DNA of 64,000 nucleotides from Deltaproteobacteria bacterium. Lineage in GTDB: Bacteria > Desulfobacterota > Desulfobacteria > Desulfobacterales > Desulfosarcinaceae. The position numbers and the translations under genes are program-made. The notes under the pieces are model-generated. The model ran no database searches, was not told where the DNA came from, and saw nothing but the letters and a program-made list of their open reading frames with translations. Positions 19,638 to 28,165 of the stretch are shown here, piece by piece. The first letter of the stretch is position 1, and the number at the start of each line of letters is the position of its first letter. The stretch is taken from contig JAKALP010000029.1 of the NCBI GenBank assembly GCA_021824175.1, positions 1-64,000 of the forward strand, in the 5' to 3' direction.

Positions 19638-22600
19638 ATGGTTACGATAAGCGGCCAAGTAGTGGTTAAAGAATCGGCAGTTGGCATTCCAGGACTGCTG
19701 GTCGAACTCTTCAGCGCGGCGCCCACGCCTGCGGTGGGACTTGTCACCGGCGCAGTGACGGCCTTGGCGAGCGCCCCCGGCGCCCGGCGTTATGGCACGG
19801 TCCAGACGCAAGGTGATGGAACATTCCAGTTGAACATCGAAGACACGGCCATTTCCACGGCGACCGCCTCCGCGGGCGCGCTGCATGTTCGCGTGCTGGC
19901 GCCGGATGAGCCGGGCGTCGATCCCGCCGCTCAAGTCCTGTATGCCAGCACCGCACCACGCCAAAATATCGGAGCGATGGAGCAATACGTGATCCGCCTG
20001 ACCACGGACCAGCTCAAAAAGGCCGGCGTGGCCGTACCATCCGAAGTCTCCGAAGATTTCGAGCCGGCCCCCAACGTGCTCGATCGATTGAATACCATCG
20101 TCAAGCGCCAGTCCAGCATCGCCGACGGCCATATTCAGGCAGCACGCCAACTGGTGGACGCCCACCGGGCGCGCTTTTCGAACTTCCAGTCCGGTTTCAA
20201 AAAATCGCTGGCCCAATCGGTATCCAAGGTGCCCAGCGCCCTGCTCGATCCCCAACGGTTTGTGGCGACGGGTGAAAGCGTTGCCGCCAAGTGCACGGCG
20301 GCCATCCAGAAAAGTATTGCCGACACCGTCAATTCCACCGACCCGGCCACGCGTGCACCCGCGCGCGGTTTTCTCTCCCTGACGGATGCCGAAGTAAATG
20401 AATTGCGCGGCCAAGTCGCCGCGGACGGCACAGTTCCGGCCAACGCGGTGTCAACGATCCTGGCGCGCAACAGCGGCGGTGCGACCACGACCTATGTCCA
20501 GTCCTCCGATCGACTGCCGATATGTCTGCCTTCTTCGACAAGTCTCGATTGCGCCAATGCCGCCCTGCTGGTACCAACGCCATCGGGCTCGACTTCGCCC
20601 GGCACACCCGCGCCCACGCCGACCGGGCCCGGAGCCACGACCATCACCGCCGACGACATTCCGCGCTATCTCGCCAGGCTGATCGACACCGTCGAGTCAC
20701 CGGAGCAAGCCCTTGCCACGGGACTCATGCCGGTGGCGACCCGCGACAGTATCCAGCAGAGCATCCAGTCCTTTGTCTTCAATCCAAGCCCCGCCGACGT
20801 GCCCTCCTTCCACGACTTCAACAACCTGCAGATCGCTTTCGACTATGTGTGGCAGGAAGCCATCGACCAGGGCATCCTCGATCTGGCGCAGAATGCGTAT
20901 GAAACCATCGTCGGCCTGGGCGGCAATCCGGATCATCCCGACTACCTGACCGGACCGCCCTTGCAGGCCCTGGCCGCCGAAGGAACGCTGGTCCTGCGCG
21001 CCAACGCGGCGCCCACCATTGTCGTGCGGGATCACCGCGGCGAACCGCCCGGAACGCGCCTGGCGCCGCCGCCCCCGGCCAGCAACGGTGGCTACACCAC
21101 CACCGTCTCGGCCGACGGCACGGTCGTGCGCGATCACCGCACCCAGTCCAATCCGGCCGCCATCGCCGATCCGATCCAGAGACTGCCGGCGCTCTTGGAG
21201 GCCTTGAAGAAGAAGCTGCAGCAAAACTACAGTTTCACGATCTTTGCGGCCAACGCCAAGGAGCGCAGCGTCAACTTCGGCATCCTGAACACCTTCCGCC
21301 AGGTCTGGACCCCGCTGGCCTACCAGGCCGGGCCGCTGGTAAAGTCGATTCCCCTGGCGCCCATGCAGACGCAGAAAGTGGTCATCACGCGCAAGACCAC
21401 CTCTAAGCGCTCCGTCAAAGAACTTCGCAACAACCTGAGCATTCTCAAGGATGAGACCAGCACCACCAACCGCGCCGAACAGGACATTGTCGACCGGGCC
21501 TCCACCAACACCAGCTTTTCCTATTCCAACCAGGCCCAGGGCAACTTCGAGGTGGGCAGCGATACGACCACCACCGGCTTCAAGCAGGACGCGGCCAAAA
21601 GCTCGGAAGACACCAAGAAATCTTTTCATGAAGCCATCTTCAAAGCCTCCCAGGAGTTCAAGGAAGAGCGCACCACCGAAATCAACACCGAAACCACCAC
21701 CGAATACGAGTCGATCGAAACTACGGAGATATCCAACCCCAACAACGAAATCGCCGTGGCCTTTCTCTTCTACGAGCTCCAGCGCCGCTACCGCATCTAC
21801 GAGCGCCTCTACCGCGTGCAGCCGGTGGTGCTGGTGGCCCAGGAATTTCCACAACCCAGCGATATCGATGCGGCCTGGCTGGTGCGCTACGACTGGATCT
21901 TGCGCCGCGCCATCCTGGACGACTCCTTCCTGCCGACCCTCAACACCCTGATCGAAGTCTCCGGCGAAGAAGTGGCGCTGGATGAAATGCAGGTCAACGT
22001 CAACCAGCAGCGCACCATTGTCCAGGAGCTGCGCCAGGAGCTGGCCATCGCCAGCCAGCAGGCCACGGCCCAGCGGGCGCTGATGGACCAGGCCGTGTAC
22101 CAGAAATCGGGCGCCTCGGACGGCGGCATTCTGGGCGCTGTCGAATCCCTGGCCGGCGGCCTGGCGGCCGGCGCGGCGGAGAAGGTCGGCGACTGGCTTT
22201 TCGGCGGCAGCTCCGACAACAACAGCAACAACCGGCAGGCCCTGCAGGAGCGGGCCGACGAGGCCGCCGATCAGGTCCGCGACCTGATGTTCCGGCTGGA
22301 GCGCGAAGTGACGGCGCTCAATGCCCTGACCGAGAGCTATACCAAAGCACTGCGCGACTACAACAACCACCAGACCGAAATCGTGCGCCTGCAGCTTCAC
22401 GTGATTGATAACATCATGTACTACATGCAGGCCATCTGGACCCACGAGCCGCCCGATCAGCGCTATTTCCGGCTGCACAATGTGCCGATTCCGGATCTCA
22501 GGCCAACCTCGCGCGGCTTCCGGGTGGATCTCAACGCGGCCCTCGCCATGCCCCTGGCCTCGCCGCACTTTGCCCTGGCGCGCTTTGGCGGGCGCAATGC

Positions 22601-23204
22601 CAAAGCCTACCCCTTCGAGTCGGTGACGAAGATCAATGATCAGATGAGCTTTAAGCCGTTGTCCCAGGTGGCCGATCTCGACAATCTGCTGGGCTTCAAG
22701 GGCAACTACATGATCTTTCCACTGAAGGAATCCAACCCGCTCACCGATTTCATGATGGACCCCTACGTGGATCGCGCCACCGGCCAGCTGGTCGATCCGG
22801 CTGATCCGCTGAACTGGTCCCTGGACGAATTCACCCAGTACGCCTGCTGCCTGAAGGAGAATTTAACCAACGATGAGTTCCAGCAGCTCTTGCCGGACCT
22901 GCGGAAGACGTATCAGACGATCTTGAGCAATCCGGTGCGCAACGACGATGTGCTGGTGGTGCCGACCAACTCCCTGTTCATTGCGGCCCTGCCCGACTCG
23001 CACACCCTGCTCGAGCAATTCAAGCTCAGCCACCGCATGATCGACGTGCTGAGCGCGGGCGCCGACCAGCGCCGCAAGGAAGTCGAGACACTGCGATATG
23101 TGGCCCGCATCCTGTCCGGCGAGCGCGAAGATCCCAACGTGGATCAAAAGGTGCTGATTCAAGGCAGTGTGCCCGGCGTGGTCGTGCCGCCCCCCGGACA
23201 CTAA
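19638..23204 (+). CDS. Unrecognised 1188-residue protein, first gene of a two-gene locus
   Basis: The start is strong (AAAGGAGG, 19621-19630 area). No signal peptide. The N-terminus (ISGQVVVKESAVGIPGLLVELF, then GTVQTQGDGTFQLNIED) resembles a carboxypeptidase-regulatory or transthyretin-like beta domain. The middle carries two copies of a short VVRDHR motif (near residues 458 and 496) around a Pro-rich patch. The region near 535-600 (NFGILNTFRQVWTPLAYQAG) looks conserved. Then come a Ser/Thr/Lys/Glu-rich part with NNEIAVAFLFYELQRRYRIY near 700, a Gln-rich coiled coil (about 775-820) and a Gly-Ala segment (AGGLAAGAAEKVGDWLFGG) that could insert in a membrane. A helical C-terminus follows. The function is unknown. 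It is probably co-transcribed with the next gene, which starts 84 nt downstream. Confidence 0.8.
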   Translation: MVTISGQVVVKESAVGIPGLLVELFSAAPTPAVGLVTGAVTALASAPGARRYGTVQTQGDGTFQLNIEDTAISTATASAGALHVRVLAPDEPGVDPAAQVLYASTAPRQNIGAMEQYVIRLTTDQLKKAGVAVPSEVSEDFEPAPNVLDRLNTIVKRQSSIADGHIQAARQLVDAHRARFSNFQSGFKKSLAQSVSKVPSALLDPQRFVATGESVAAKCTAAIQKSIADTVNSTDPATRAPARGFLSLTDAEVNELRGQVAADGTVPANAVSTILARNSGGATTTYVQSSDRLPICLPSSTSLDCANAALLVPTPSGSTSPGTPAPTPTGPGATTITADDIPRYLARLIDTVESPEQALATGLMPVATRDSIQQSIQSFVFNPSPADVPSFHDFNNLQIAFDYVWQEAIDQGILDLAQNAYETIVGLGGNPDHPDYLTGPPLQALAAEGTLVLRANAAPTIVVRDHRGEPPGTRLAPPPPASNGGYTTTVSADGTVVRDHRTQSNPAAIADPIQRLPALLEALKKKLQQNYSFTIFAANAKERSVNFGILNTFRQVWTPLAYQAGPLVKSIPLAPMQTQKVVITRKTTSKRSVKELRNNLSILKDETSTTNRAEQDIVDRASTNTSFSYSNQAQGNFEVGSDTTTTGFKQDAAKSSEDTKKSFHEAIFKASQEFKEERTTEINTETTTEYESIETTEISNPNNEIAVAFLFYELQRRYRIYERLYRVQPVVLVAQEFPQPSDIDAAWLVRYDWILRRAILDDSFLPTLNTLIEVSGEEVALDEMQVNVNQQRTIVQELRQELAIASQQATAQRALMDQAVYQKSGASDGGILGAVESLAGGLAAGAAEKVGDWLFGGSSDNNSNNRQALQERADEAADQVRDLMFRLEREVTALNALTESYTKALRDYNNHQTEIVRLQLHVIDNIMYYMQAIWTHEPPDQRYFRLHNVPIPDLRPTSRGFRVDLNAALAMPLASPHFALARFGGRNAKAYPFESVTKINDQMSFKPLSQVADLDNLLGFKGNYMIFPLKESNPLTDFMMDPYVDRATGQLVDPADPLNWSLDEFTQYACCLKENLTNDEFQQLLPDLRKTYQTILSNPVRNDDVLVVPTNSLFIAALPDSHTLLEQFKLSHRMIDVLSAGADQRRKEVETLRYVARILSGEREDPNVDQKVLIQGSVPGVVVPPPGH

Positions 23205-23288: not shown

Positions 23289-26200
23289 GTGACCGGCAAT
23301 CAGCAGCAATTTCTAAACCTGCTCCGCGACGATATGAAGCCGTCCGGTCGCCCGGAGCCATTGTTCCGGTTCCTCGATAGATTAACCTTCGGGGACCTGA
23401 CCGATTGCGCCTCGTCGTACTTCGAGCACGACGCCGAATACGTTCACCAGCGTGCCAAGCTGAATGCCGTGTTTCTGAAACTCGCGGAGGACCTGCTCGC
23501 CAAGGGCGACGTGTACTTCGCCCTGCGTCTGGAAATCGCCCTGCGCGCGCCGCCCTGGCAAAGCCGGTACACGGCGCTCTCGGCCACCGGCCGCGCCACC
23601 CTCAATCGACGCGTCGAGCATGAGAAACGCAAGCTGACCGCGGTCCAGCGCCAATTCATCGATCTCTTCGACCATTACATGCACAAACAGCTTTCCCAGC
23701 AGAAGCTCGAAGGTTTCACCAGCAAGCTCAAGACTTTCCAGGAGCGCCATGACTGCCTGTTTGCCTATGTGGAAGTCTCCCAGGGATATGGCGCGCGCAA
23801 TGGGCATGATTCACTGCTGATCTTCCTGGGGCTTTCCAGGGCCGCTATCTGGCTTGGCGACGCGGCCTTCACCCAGATCTACCAGAGCAAGGTGGCGGAG
23901 AAGAATACGCCCTGGCACGAGCGCTATGCCGCCCTCAGTCCGGAATGGCGTCAACTCATCGAGGGCGATATCCGCGACAAGAAGACAATCCGCAGCGACG
24001 TGGAGTACAAGGGCAAAATCCACAAGGGCGCGGAGGTTGGACACTATGACTTCGGACCGGTGACGCCGGCCAAGACCCAGCCCGCGGCGCCCTCCCAGCC
24101 CCAAGCGTCCGGCAAGGCGGTAGCCGAGTTCCTCAAACGCTACCGGCAGTTTGTGGCGCGCGGCGACCGGCACTCCATGGATCAATACCAGAATTTCCTG
24201 CGCGTGCAGGCCTTCGAGGATCTGCGGGCGTGCGTCGAGGCCTATTTGAAAGATTCGAGCGACCAAGGCACCGCCACGAACCCGCGCTCGCTGGTCATGT
24301 TCTTCGGCGTGCTGTCGAGGGCGCTGACCAAGGGCGATGCCTATTACGCCTTCAAGGTCAAGTACTTGACGCAGACCGCGGGCACGGTGTGGAACCAACG
24401 GTATATGGCCCTCGACCAGAAGATGTACCGCGACCGGCTCAAGGCCCAGATCGAAGAAGAGATTGCCAAAAAGGGTCGCCTGCTCGATGACCTCAAGGCC
24501 GCGTACTACTCCCGCTTCCAGGCCGATCCGGACCTGCAAGCCCTGCAGACCTTCGAACCACCGTTGCCGAATCCGGCCCAGATCGATAATCTGGCCGGGG
24601 CCCTCAGCGACTGCGAGACCGCCGTGGCTGTCAGAAGCATTGAAAATTTCGAACGCGCCTTTGACAGCCTTGCAAAAATCCTCGCTTCGGAGAAGGATTC
24701 GCTCACGCTGTGGGTTCTGGCGAAGCGCTGCCGCGAGCGCGCCGGTCTTGATGCGCGCTTTCGCAATCTCTTCTACCTGTATGGCGTCGGCCTGCTCTTC
24801 ATCAACGCGCTGCAAAAGCGGCCCGTGGTGTATACGTCCGGGTTCAACGCCCAGGAGCGCGAATGCCTGCTGGGCGGCGGTCGCTTCAACGATCCCTATT
24901 TCGCGGATTTCGTGCTGGCGCTCGAATACGTGATGTGGAAGAAGAGCGGCGCGCCCACGCTGAGCGAGCTGTGCAAAGGCCAGGGGCTGCTTCAAATCTA
25001 CGCGGACCGCTACCGATTGTTTCTGACGCCCATGATGGAAGGCGCAACGCTGCTGGGCAGCGTCGAACGGCTCTGGGAGAAGAAAAATCACGAGATGGCG
25101 GCCATCCGCATCCCGGTCATGAGCCGGCGCGATGGCAAAAAAGAACTTCGCATCGGGCAAACCATCGGCAATTACTACATCTTGTTCTGGGATTTTGAAC
25201 GGGAGATGGCCTACCTGCTGGTCAACGGACTCGACAAGGTCGTATTCGAGGCGCGCGCCCAGCGCCTGGCCGAAATCTATGACGATGATGCGCTCTACGG
25301 CGAGATCGTGCGCGGCACCGCCGCCATCCTGCCGTTTCTCGATCTGCTTTGGCAGGTGGTCCTTTACATGCCCGATCTGGTTTCCGGCGGGCTCACCGGT
25401 CTAGCCAAAAGCATCATATTCAATTACGCCTTTGAAAAATCCACCGAAGCATTGGGCGTGGACGGCACCCAGGCGCAACTCTTCATGCTGGGGTTGAGCC
25501 TGCTGGTGCACGGCACCAAGCCCAAGGAGGTGGACGCAGCCGAGGTCGAACACCAGTTCAGCGCGGCCGAGCACCATCTCGAACCCAATGCATCGGCGGT
25601 GAACGGCCAGAACCGCATGATCGACGCGACCGGGACCCAGGGCACGGGTGCCACGAGCGCAGCGATTCACGCCGGCCAAGCGCGCATCGGCACTGAAATG
25701 CGCGGCATCGAGCGCCCCGGAGGGATGATCGAAATTCGCGGCGCGGAGACGCCGACGGGCGAAACCCGCGTGGGCACTGAGATGCGCGGCATCGAAGGGC
25801 CCGATGCCACCCACGAAATCCGCGGCTTTGATCCGGGCACCGAGGCTGGTTCTCCGGGTGGTGCGGCCCACGGGAAAGATGCGTCCCACACCACGGCCGA
25901 TCCGCGCGCCACTGACGACCACGGCAGCCAGGACCGCGCCACGGATGCTGGAGATCGCGACACAGCCGATTCGGCAGCGCACAACGATCCCGCCGGCCGC
26001 GCCAATCAGGACCAAGGGCTCAAGGAGCATCAGGATCGTTGGGTCATTGGCGAGGGAATTTCGGGGCGGGAGAAGAAAAGCATTCGCGCGCCCAGGGGCA
26101 AGCAAAGCAGTCCGCCGCTGCCGCCCCACGTTCGCGACCGCTTCACCCAGGGCACCTGGTCCCAGCATGGAGAAATCCACGTCAACGAGGGCGGCCTGCA

Positions 26201-26735
26201 GCTGCGGCGGCCCTCAAAAACACCCGCGGCCAATTGGCTCGAGTACGAAAGAGGATTCGACGAGCAGCTGGCGGAACCGCTGGCCAAAGAGGTTTCAGCC
26301 CCGAATAAGCGTGTCGTAAAGCTGGGCCCCGAGGACCAAGGCTATCGAAGTTCGTCGAGCGGTACAACCAACCGTTTGAAGATGCAGAAAACCTACAAGG
26401 CCCCCGAAGGCCTGATGGATCGCCGGCCGGATGCCTCCATGGAAGTCATTGAGAATTTGCCGAACAAGGGCAAAAAGGTCGCGGAGGTGCATTACTTTGA
26501 GGCCACGCTGCAGACCGACTTTGAAACGGGCGTGGCCGGCCGGGGGCATAAACAGCGTCAGCTCGCCGGTACGATCTGGTTATCCCAGGGCCGCACAGGC
26601 TACAGCCCGGATACACGCATCTACTACCACATCATCGCGCCGGGGCCGCCGACCGGCAATACGCTAGCCTATCTCCAAAAGGTCCTGGATCTGTTCCCCA
26701 ACCTGGAGATCAACTGGTTCGTGGTACCGAAGTAA
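23289..26735 (+). CDS. Unrecognised 1148-residue repeat protein with toxin-like modular layout
   Basis: GTG 23289 follows GGAGGG. Three copies of a roughly 115-residue helical repeat lie near residues 5-115, 119-232 and 278-395. Each ends in W-x-x-R-Y-x-A-L (WQSRYTAL, WHERYAAL, WNQRYMAL). Residues about 440-730 form a second, globular part. A hydrophobic segment (FLDLLWQVVLYMPDLVSGGL) lies near 680-700. A low-complexity linker follows (about 790-930), with two copies of GTEMRGIE and His/Asp/Ala-rich sequence. The C-terminal 200 residues are a separate compact domain ending WFVVPK. Repeats, linker and a distinct C-terminal domain resemble polymorphic toxins. No signal peptide, known toxin fold or immunity gene was recognised, so the function is unknown. 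Confidence 0.8.
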   Translation: MTGNQQQFLNLLRDDMKPSGRPEPLFRFLDRLTFGDLTDCASSYFEHDAEYVHQRAKLNAVFLKLAEDLLAKGDVYFALRLEIALRAPPWQSRYTALSATGRATLNRRVEHEKRKLTAVQRQFIDLFDHYMHKQLSQQKLEGFTSKLKTFQERHDCLFAYVEVSQGYGARNGHDSLLIFLGLSRAAIWLGDAAFTQIYQSKVAEKNTPWHERYAALSPEWRQLIEGDIRDKKTIRSDVEYKGKIHKGAEVGHYDFGPVTPAKTQPAAPSQPQASGKAVAEFLKRYRQFVARGDRHSMDQYQNFLRVQAFEDLRACVEAYLKDSSDQGTATNPRSLVMFFGVLSRALTKGDAYYAFKVKYLTQTAGTVWNQRYMALDQKMYRDRLKAQIEEEIAKKGRLLDDLKAAYYSRFQADPDLQALQTFEPPLPNPAQIDNLAGALSDCETAVAVRSIENFERAFDSLAKILASEKDSLTLWVLAKRCRERAGLDARFRNLFYLYGVGLLFINALQKRPVVYTSGFNAQERECLLGGGRFNDPYFADFVLALEYVMWKKSGAPTLSELCKGQGLLQIYADRYRLFLTPMMEGATLLGSVERLWEKKNHEMAAIRIPVMSRRDGKKELRIGQTIGNYYILFWDFEREMAYLLVNGLDKVVFEARAQRLAEIYDDDALYGEIVRGTAAILPFLDLLWQVVLYMPDLVSGGLTGLAKSIIFNYAFEKSTEALGVDGTQAQLFMLGLSLLVHGTKPKEVDAAEVEHQFSAAEHHLEPNASAVNGQNRMIDATGTQGTGATSAAIHAGQARIGTEMRGIERPGGMIEIRGAETPTGETRVGTEMRGIEGPDATHEIRGFDPGTEAGSPGGAAHGKDASHTTADPRATDDHGSQDRATDAGDRDTADSAAHNDPAGRANQDQGLKEHQDRWVIGEGISGREKKSIRAPRGKQSSPPLPPHVRDRFTQGTWSQHGEIHVNEGGLQLRRPSKTPAANWLEYERGFDEQLAEPLAKEVSAPNKRVVKLGPEDQGYRSSSSGTTNRLKMQKTYKAPEGLMDRRPDASMEVIENLPNKGKKVAEVHYFEATLQTDFETGVAGRGHKQRQLAGTIWLSQGRTGYSPDTRIYYHIIAPGPPTGNTLAYLQKVLDLFPNLEINWFVVPK
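25682..25799 (+). repeat. Short direct repeat in the linker of the 1148-residue protein
   Basis: Two copies of a unit encoding (I/V)GTEMRGIE(R/G)P begin near 25682 and 25768, about 86 bp apart, with EIRG following each. It marks the start of the flexible linker before the C-terminal domain. Confidence 0.7.
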
Positions 26736-26959
26736 ACCGCCGGCGAGTTCTTCGATCGCGATTCCGTCTTAGGGAGTAAAATCGCCAAAGTCGACGGATT
26801 CAATCTTTATCAAGTCCTTATAAAACCTTTACAAACAGGGATTATCCTGCGGATGTCGCCGGGGTCGAAGAAGTGCGAGGGTGCAGCAGCACCCGCAGCT
26901 TGACACGCGATTGGAAGGTCCCAATTGTTTATATTTGGATGCTTCGGGAAGGAGAAACC

Positions 26960-27763
26960 ATGAAATATCTTGCTTTGACGATCCTCAGCGCCTTGATCTG
27001 GCTCAGCGCCGCAGCTCCGGCGCGGGCCGAAACACCCAAAATGTGCGGCAGCCCAAATCCGGCTGCGCCGCAGAAGGAGAGTGCCATGTTCATGGATGAC
27101 CTTAAAACCATTGAGAATACCACCATCCCGCCCATTGACCGGGCGGCGCCCGTAAAATTCGAAACCGCTGCTTTCGGCCTGGGCTGATTCTGGGGCGTTG
27201 AAGCCCGGTTCGGGCTTATTGACGGCATCATCCGCACCCGGGTGGGCTATGCCGGCGGCAGCAGCCCTGACCCCGATTACGGCCACATCGGCGATCACAC
27301 CGAGACCGTGCAGGTGGACTACGACCCGGCGCGCATCACCTACAAAGAACTGCTGGCCATCTTCTGGCAAAGCCACGACCCCACTCATCGCACCTGGTCG
27401 CGGCAGTACCGCCATGTGGTTTTCTACCAGGATGACACCCAGCGCCGCCTGGCAGAGAAAAGTAAAGCAGCCCTGGAGCAAACGCTGGACAAAACCGTGC
27501 GCACGGAAATCGCCCCCCTGCAAAGCTTCACCTGGGCCGAAGAATACCATCAGAAGTATTTGTTGAAATCCGAACGCGCCCTGGTCCAGGAGCTGCAACG
27601 CATCTACCCCCGACCCAGGGATTTCGACAACTCCACGGCCGTGGCCCGCCTCAATGGCTACGTGGCCGGCGACGGCACGCGCCAGCGGCTGGCCCGGGAG
27701 ATCGATCAACTGGGATTGAGCGCGCGCGGGCGGGATCTGCTGATGGGGCTGATGCGGCCATGA
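26960..27763 (+). CDS. msrA: Peptide-methionine (S)-S-oxide reductase MsrA, selenocysteine-containing, exported
   Basis: The frame runs from ATG 26960 to TGA 27763 with one in-frame TGA at 27185-27187. That codon falls exactly in the catalytic motif: G-TGA-F-W-G-V-E, where MsrA normally has GCFWGVE. Codon 76 is therefore read as selenocysteine. After it come RVGYAGG, HTETVQVDYDP and the full MsrA core to residue 267. A Sec signal peptide (YLALTILSALIWLSAAAPARA) directs it to the periplasm, to repair oxidised methionine. Two in-frame starts each have a ribosome-binding site: ATG 26960 (GGAAGGAGAAACC) and ATG 27086 (AAGGAG plus 6 nt), the second giving a form without the signal. No resolving C-terminal cysteine is visible. 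Sec-insertion genes must lie elsewhere. Confidence 0.88.
27201..27217 (+). promoter_or_regulatory. Bacterial SECIS element of msrA
   Basis: A perfect 7-bp stem AAGCCCG/CGGGCTT closes a GTT loop 13 nt downstream of the UGA. The loop G (27208) is 21 nt from the UGA, inside the window expected for bacterial SECIS hairpins, which carry a G or GU at the apex. This supports decoding of the TGA as selenocysteine by SelB. Confidence 0.75.
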
Positions 27764-27789
27764 CATTTGCTTGGCCAGACCTTTTGTAC

Positions 27790-28165
27790 AAGCCATCTCA
27801 AAATAATCTTTTGGCCCAAACTCTTTGTTGAAAGACTATTTTGAGATAGATAGCTGAGAGGTTGGGGAGTTTCTCAAACAAAGTCGTGTCATTGCCGCGA
27901 TGGCGGGAATCCAGTTTTCTCGAATGCCATCCCGCTGGATGCCCGCCCGGGCATGACGAAAGAAACACTCCGAGTCTTGAGATAACTGTATGTGGATCGA
28001 CCGTAACTCTACCGAATATGCATACAGGCCATCTCAAAATAAGGGTTTTGGGCCAAAATCGCGACGGAGGCAAATTTTAAACCGCAGACATACTGAAGTA
28101 TTTCGAGGATTTAAAATTTGCCTCCAACAAAGAGTTTGGACCAAAAAACTATTTTGAGATGGCTT
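27790..28165. repeat. Nested inverted-repeat element (three copies of a 32-bp unit)
   Basis: Three related copies of a unit (core GCCATCTCAAAATA, then TTTTGG-x-CCAAA) lie at 27790-27821 (+), 28026-28057 (+) and 28134-28165 (-). Copies 2 and 3 form the ends of a 140-bp imperfect palindrome whose centre is a perfect 16-bp inverted repeat (28066-28081 and 28110-28125, GGAGGCAAATTTTAAA), itself enclosing ATACT/AGTAT. Copy 1 also pairs with a nearby inverted arm (27795-27811 with 27831-27847, one mismatch). No transposase is present. It resembles a non-autonomous MITE-like element or a strong RNA hairpin array, and fills the gap between msrA and the FGE-type gene. Confidence 0.8.

Follow-up and report, generated by a model that had tools for sequence, protein, structure and literature searches.

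The window analysed here, the first 64,000 nucleotides of contig JAKALP010000029.1 (C49 in our numbering) of a Desulfosarcinaceae genome (assembly GCA_021824175.1), carries a gene for a methionine sulfoxide reductase of the MsrA type (Table 1). From ATG 26960 to the stop codon at 27761–27763 the frame comprises 267 codons with a single internal TGA, placed at the catalytic Cys of the GCFWG motif, and its translation scored over the cut-offs for Pfam PF01625 (149.5 bits against 23.7, residues 70–206) and NCBIfam TIGR00401 msrA (130.8 bits against 108.1). A preliminary description of the locus had read it as an otherwise whole MsrA with an active-site selenocysteine (Sec), an SECIS-like hairpin 13 nt further on, an export-type leader and two in-frame starts with good ribosome-binding sites, and had expected automatic annotation to break the gene in two; each of these elements was borne out. 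Mechanical open reading frame (ORF) calling under table 11 returns two pieces, 26873–27187 and 27242–27763. The leader MKYLALTILSALIWLSAAAPARA, read by eye, contains a hydrophobic segment with a peak of 2.43 over 12 residues. The inner ATG lies in frame, 42 codons downstream of the first, with its AAGGAG ending 6 nt before it, and the duplex with the anti-Shine–Dalgarno (SD) sequence has the same energy at both starts (−8.8 kcal/mol). Scans for promoters and terminators gave values near chance (1 against 0.6 and 2 against 1.6 in shuffles). Just 3′ of the gene, an inverted repeat at 27791–27851, perhaps a terminator or a small mobile palindrome, drew two chance miRNA-type Rfam matches on both strands. 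Upstream lie two adjacent, very long ORFs of 1188 and 1148 codons (19638–23204 and 23289–26735), neither with a Pfam match at E up to 0.001.

Table 1. Features of the selenoprotein MsrA gene, in window coordinates.
Feature	Position	Strand	Details
Shine–Dalgarno of the long form, AAGGAG	26949..26954	+	Sequence; duplex −8.8 kcal/mol
Long open frame, exported-type selenoprotein MsrA	26960..27763	+	267 residues, then stop; codon 76 is Sec
Export leader MKYLALTILSALIWLSAAAPARA	26960..27028	+	Likely signal peptidase I site after ARA, by eye
Internal Shine–Dalgarno, AAGGAG	27074..27079	+	Sequence; kept in many relatives
Short open frame, predicted cytoplasmic selenoprotein MsrA	27086..27763	+	ATG is codon 43, at −33 from Sec
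MsrA catalytic domain, PF01625	27167..27577	+	Residues 70–206
TGA codon for catalytic selenocysteine U76	27185..27187	+	Motif G-TGA-F-W-G (G-U-F-W-G)
SECIS stem-loop, 7 bp	27201..27217	+	27201–27207 paired with 27211–27217; loop GUU at 27208–27210
C-terminal extension matching the CoMsrA helical domain	27578..27760	+	phmmer alignment to 7c13/4u66/4lwj, residues 66–253

Homologues were sought at three taxonomic levels, with some genomes falling into more than one search. Within the family (30 genomes), all 14 matches below 1e-38 contained one TGA, and matches from 4e-32 on were Cys MsrAs and pieces, plus one fragment with a TGA. Within the order (389 genomes), one TGA was present in 52 of 53 matches at E up to 1e-40 and in 52/52 of those covering the site; the exception (G054) is uninformative because its match begins at residue 101, with the 5′ part missing and the site uncovered. 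Across the phylum (395 genomes), TGA was found in 28 of 33 matches at E up to 1e-35 and in 28/28 below 1e-50; the other five (1e-37 to 1e-36) had no stop and aligned over the catalytic domain only, and the two of these that were fetched both read GCFWG. The preliminary description had looked to homologues for either Cys or TGA at codon 76, and it is TGA that stands there in relatives of the same MsrA type covering the site; this tells against an isolated stop or an error in sequencing.

For closer comparison, 79 loci were taken and 75 distinct sequences kept, the window's own (L024) included; TGA is present in 75/75, in a set that was picked by a motif requiring a stop at that place. The nearest named relatives are Deltaproteobacteria/Desulfobacterales assemblies at 72 and 71% identity, and Desulfosarcina alkanivorans stands at 54%. 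One locus (L062, in G037) has G-U-F-W-D in place of G-U-F-W-G. Outside the 75 are L082 and L092, which failed the motif filter though a TGA is present (counting codons from Sec, L082 has no inner ATG in −38 to −20 and L092 has one at −31 with a weak SD); L123 and L127, both with TGA in the phylum search (two in L127); L098, which ends before the site; L099, a G-TGA-FWG fragment followed by unrelated sequence; and L072–L076, judged by their ends to be repeats of loci already counted. Locus L037 is cut by a contig end.

Bacterial SECIS elements are hairpins lying directly 3′ of the UGA, with a short loop and a G among the first loop bases. The hairpin in the window has a 7-bp stem and a 3-nt loop, GUU, begins 13 nt after the TGA with its loop 20 nt from the UGA, and covaries across relatives. 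In a gap-free alignment of the 75 sequences, with pairing scored on 74 rows, 87.3% of 518 cells paired, compared with 76.7% in shuffles (0/500 as high) and 62.7% in the best slid version; 55 cells had changed on both sides from the commonest pair against 20.5 in shuffles, and the covariation score was 0.266 against 0.088 in the control, with the shuffle controls leaving the kinship of the sequences in place. Such both-side changes occurred in three of the seven stem pairs, not above shuffles (2.7), one pair was invariant, and the outermost pair was broken in 35/74 rows. Folded as a lone sequence the hairpin was unexceptional (z of −1.89, −0.91 and 0.07 over 43, 61 and 86 nt), and a search of 26700–28000 with Rfam, which may contain no bacterial SECIS model, returned neither a SECIS match nor a convincing match to any other RNA family, so the case for the hairpin rests on the comparison.

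The genome (6.07 Mb in 61 contigs, 99.5% complete, 3.4% contamination) contains the complete set of decoding genes, selA, selB, selC and selD, that the preliminary description had named as the check on Sec decoding: one selA (620 bits), two SelB-like proteins that pass the cut-off (379 and 286 bits) and six weaker matches that do not, two selD genes over the cut-off with an in-frame TGA in each, and two tRNA-Sec genes with UCA anticodons, both over the gathering score. There are two sets of Sec parts, yet one selA. The more usual set comprises a SelB on contig C31, a tRNA-Sec on C32 and a selD with TGA on C51. At ~173.7–181.4 kb of contig C22 (L100), a second, divergent tRNA-Sec (UCA) lies directly before the second SelB, whose C-terminal winged-helix match is only borderline, with a selD containing TGA ~5 kb further on and, upstream, a molybdopterin oxidoreductase that we take to be formate-dehydrogenase-like. 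The two decoding pairs may each serve different SECIS elements, or one set could stem from the 3.4% of contamination.

Judged by its sequence, the protein belongs with CoMsrA of Clostridium oremlandii, whose structure is solved, among the 1-Cys-type selenoprotein MsrAs, a family that is already known. The C. oremlandii structures (PDB 4LWJ, 4U66 and 7C13) were the best solved relatives (E 4e-51, residues 66–253). CoMsrA, as described in PMC4333827, contains Sec and no Cys, needs its helical domain for activity, and is reduced by glutaredoxin, not thioredoxin; by sequence alignment the window protein resembles it in the catalytic Sec, the lack of a resolving Cys and the extra C-terminal helical domain, and differs in its export-type leader and inner second start. 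No Cys follows the Sec in the window protein, and 66 of the 75 sequences have no resolving Cys within the 190 residues that come next after it; the two nearest relatives lack the Cys that the window protein has at residue 29, in the stretch separating leader from inner start. Three glutaredoxin matches were found in the window genome: a plain one, one that follows an export-type leader, and a short protein containing a TGA. This last, at C10:257832–257987 (L136; 25.6 bits), with TGA at its active site DG-U-PHT, is a possible Sec partner for the Sec-MsrA, by analogy with C. oremlandii.

The preliminary description had also raised the possibility of a periplasmic and a cytoplasmic product from this one gene, and comparison across the 75 sequences lends the second start strong support. 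An in-frame ATG lies 20–38 codons before Sec in 56 of them, and at exactly −33 in 31; elsewhere between codons −60 and −10 the ATG count reaches at most 12/72, at −59. Taking the ATG with the best SD where a row held several, and a generic anti-SD probe that may differ from the hosts' 16S rRNA, the mean SD duplex at the inner start was −7.2 kcal/mol, against −4.7 in synonymous-codon shuffles and −2.4 at in-frame Met codons downstream of Sec (n = 194); 47 of the 56 rows were stronger than their own shuffle mean (Wilcoxon p 3e-8, with related sequences counted as independent, as in the other P value given here). Rows with a single candidate ATG, in which no selection was involved, averaged −7.0 (n = 44), and the 31 rows at −33 averaged −7.6. 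An SD at or below −5.5 preceded 42/56 inner starts compared with 31/194 downstream Mets, and within the same stretch an SD at or below −7 preceded 37 of 70 in-frame ATGs and none of 28 out-of-frame ones. In the 48 rows with an ATG at −38 to −28, the anti-SD profile peaked at −9/−10 nt and was low elsewhere. As a small control we used 32 exported-like ORFs called mechanically from the fetched loci: 15 had an in-frame ATG at codons 28–60 and five an SD at or below −5.5, with one reaching −7 compared with 35/75 Sec-MsrAs (Fisher p 3.5e-6). That one control ORF is presumably an MsrB-like gene beside a Sec-MsrA.

The inner start is not universal, since 19 of the 75 sequences have no ATG at −38 to −20 and another 14 have a weak SD (above −5.5 kcal/mol). 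Taken by itself, the window gene gives a modest signal, with 4.3% of 300 synonymous shuffles reaching its SD strength. On a tree of the 75, strong inner starts (42 rows) occur in most parts, with 16 changes against 24.6 under shuffled labels, a pattern that would fit an old trait with several losses or weakenings. Nine exported-looking Cys MsrA/MsrAB loci (L168, L172, L142, L158, L157, L183, L184, L040 and L044) also carry an in-frame ATG, 13–20 codons before the catalytic Cys and with an SD at or below −7 kcal/mol, and a second start may be more widespread among Msr genes of the phylum. At one locus (L109, in G663) three such genes stand side by side: a Sec-MsrA with an inner start, a Cys MsrA that looks exported, and an MsrB-like gene that has a Tat-type leader and an internal ATG with SD of its own.

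A different role for the inner site would be to pause ribosomes, its ATG and SD-like stretch slowing translation while the leader of an exclusively exported protein is targeted to the membrane. We consider this unlikely. SD-like pauses are reported early in the coding regions of E. coli membrane proteins, and the inner site, ~40 codons in, falls near the pause regions at codons 16–36 and 40–60 (PMC4359368); an SD-like stretch at or below −7 is also present in 7 of the 19 sequences that have no inner ATG. Pausing, however, requires no ATG, and the peak of the anti-SD profile sits at initiation spacing. Of the 50 sequences with an SD-like stretch at or below −6.5, 35 have an in-frame ATG 1–10 nt after the strongest one, compared with 14% under random placement. 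In the same account periplasmic proteins pause less, 41% having at least one pause against 69% of membrane and 50% of cytosolic proteins (PMC4359368). The inner site is, moreover, present without a hydrophobic leader at one locus (L035, in G004), where another upstream ATG is present. Retention of the inner Met for the sake of the protein, for example as part of a linker, is decidedly improbable in our judgement. Glu and Lys are common before this Met, and part of the SD signal must come from amino-acid preference there, because the shuffles (−4.7) exceed the strength at other Mets (−2.4); the actual codons nevertheless beat their synonymous mean in those 47 of 56 rows, the SD core falls in differing codon phases (21, 15 and 4 of the 42 strong rows, with 2 lacking a clear core), and the linker around the inner Met is poorly conserved.

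Under simple hydropathy and motif rules, the hydrophobic peak of the upstream frame reaches 1.6 or more in 70 of the 75 sequences, and four of the other five have a twin-arginine-type motif. Different branches carry lipobox-like and twin-arginine-like motifs, the inner start staying while the leader type differs, and all such labels are simple patterns with errors (L027 and L077 were called Tat via a chance upstream RR). At locus L036 a leader is present and the inner Met absent, and L054 has a leader-like frame in which a long-form start was not found. These leaders, together with the strong SD of ATG 26960 itself, make it highly improbable that the cytoplasmic form alone matters and that the upstream frame is a chance open stretch, a view for which the characterised relative offers a parallel: in CoMsrA the catalytic residue is already number 16 of 209 (PMC4333827, PMC4479559), which leaves no room for a leader. 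As for an ordinary stop at TGA 76, in a pseudogene or through sequencing error, table 11 reads it so and Rfam gave no SECIS match, but with the TGA kept in covering relatives, the protein conserved on both sides of it, a covarying hairpin and a complete Sec gene set, the chance of this is negligible.

In the window genome the sole other MsrA match, which is also the sole MsrB match, is a Cys MsrA–MsrB fusion whose N-terminus is hydrophobic; the cell would then have, in the short form, its only evidently leaderless MsrA. That argument does not hold in the other genomes. The comparison took in 39 Cys MsrA loci, among them that of the window genome; a further Cys match, G004:C26, was without a locus. 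Recognition succeeded for 35, and 34 of the 35 have a hydrophobic N-terminal stretch, with or without an inner start alike. No Cys MsrA was found in 4/18 genomes without the inner start and in 3/20 with it, and the idea of a need for a cytoplasmic copy, with another leaderless MsrA where the inner start is absent, found no support in this comparison.

We consider it likely, on comparative grounds, that the gene yields an exported and a cytoplasmic selenoenzyme from two starts, with UGA 76 read as Sec. The product would be a Sec-dependent methionine-S-sulfoxide reductase of the CoMsrA type, its UGA decoded by SelB and tRNA-Sec under the guidance of the downstream hairpin. Ribosomes would initiate twice on one mRNA: at 26960 for a precursor whose leader would direct it to export, and at 27086 for a copy that lacks the leader and would be kept in the cytoplasm. 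Both products would have the same Sec active site, and glutaredoxin-like partners may recycle the enzyme in each compartment.

To our knowledge, only scattered examples of bacterial dual localisation by internal initiation exist, such as Neisseria PilB. This MsrA/MsrB fusion is the closest precedent for a dual-start Msr: as reported in PMC6210582, one gene gives periplasmic and truncated cytoplasmic forms, the short form arising in E. coli when translation reinitiates internally, at the Met195 AUG. PilB is a Cys enzyme and a three-domain fusion whose short form also loses the whole thioredoxin-like domain, whereas the predicted short form of the window gene, a selenoprotein, drops nothing but leader and linker. 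HBP35 of Porphyromonas gingivalis, with a long form bearing a signal peptide and shorter forms from internal Met codons (PMC2907840), is similar in principle; it is an unrelated protein and its short forms are without the thioredoxin domain. Selenoprotein MsrA with the active site GUFWG/H is listed among more than 110 prokaryotic selenoprotein families in a review (PMC13188914) in which the words signal peptide, secret- and periplasm- are absent, and we found no report of a dual-start or exported bacterial selenoprotein MsrA in the open-licence papers searched.

In conclusion, what is new here is the conserved second start, the Sec-MsrA itself belonging to a known family. On balance we lean towards a phylum-wide and old dual-start selenoprotein in Desulfobacterota that would serve both envelope and cytoplasm, in which the inner start is ancestral and leaders of the Sec, lipoprotein and Tat types have been swapped around it. 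Standard annotation easily misreads such genes twice, once at the UGA and once when a start codon is chosen. Should both starts be in use, a single mRNA puts a costly selenoenzyme into two compartments. The gene offers a conserved case for testing bacterial dual localisation by internal initiation and raises the question of how, beyond the cytoplasm, recycling works for a Sec enzyme that lacks a resolving Cys.
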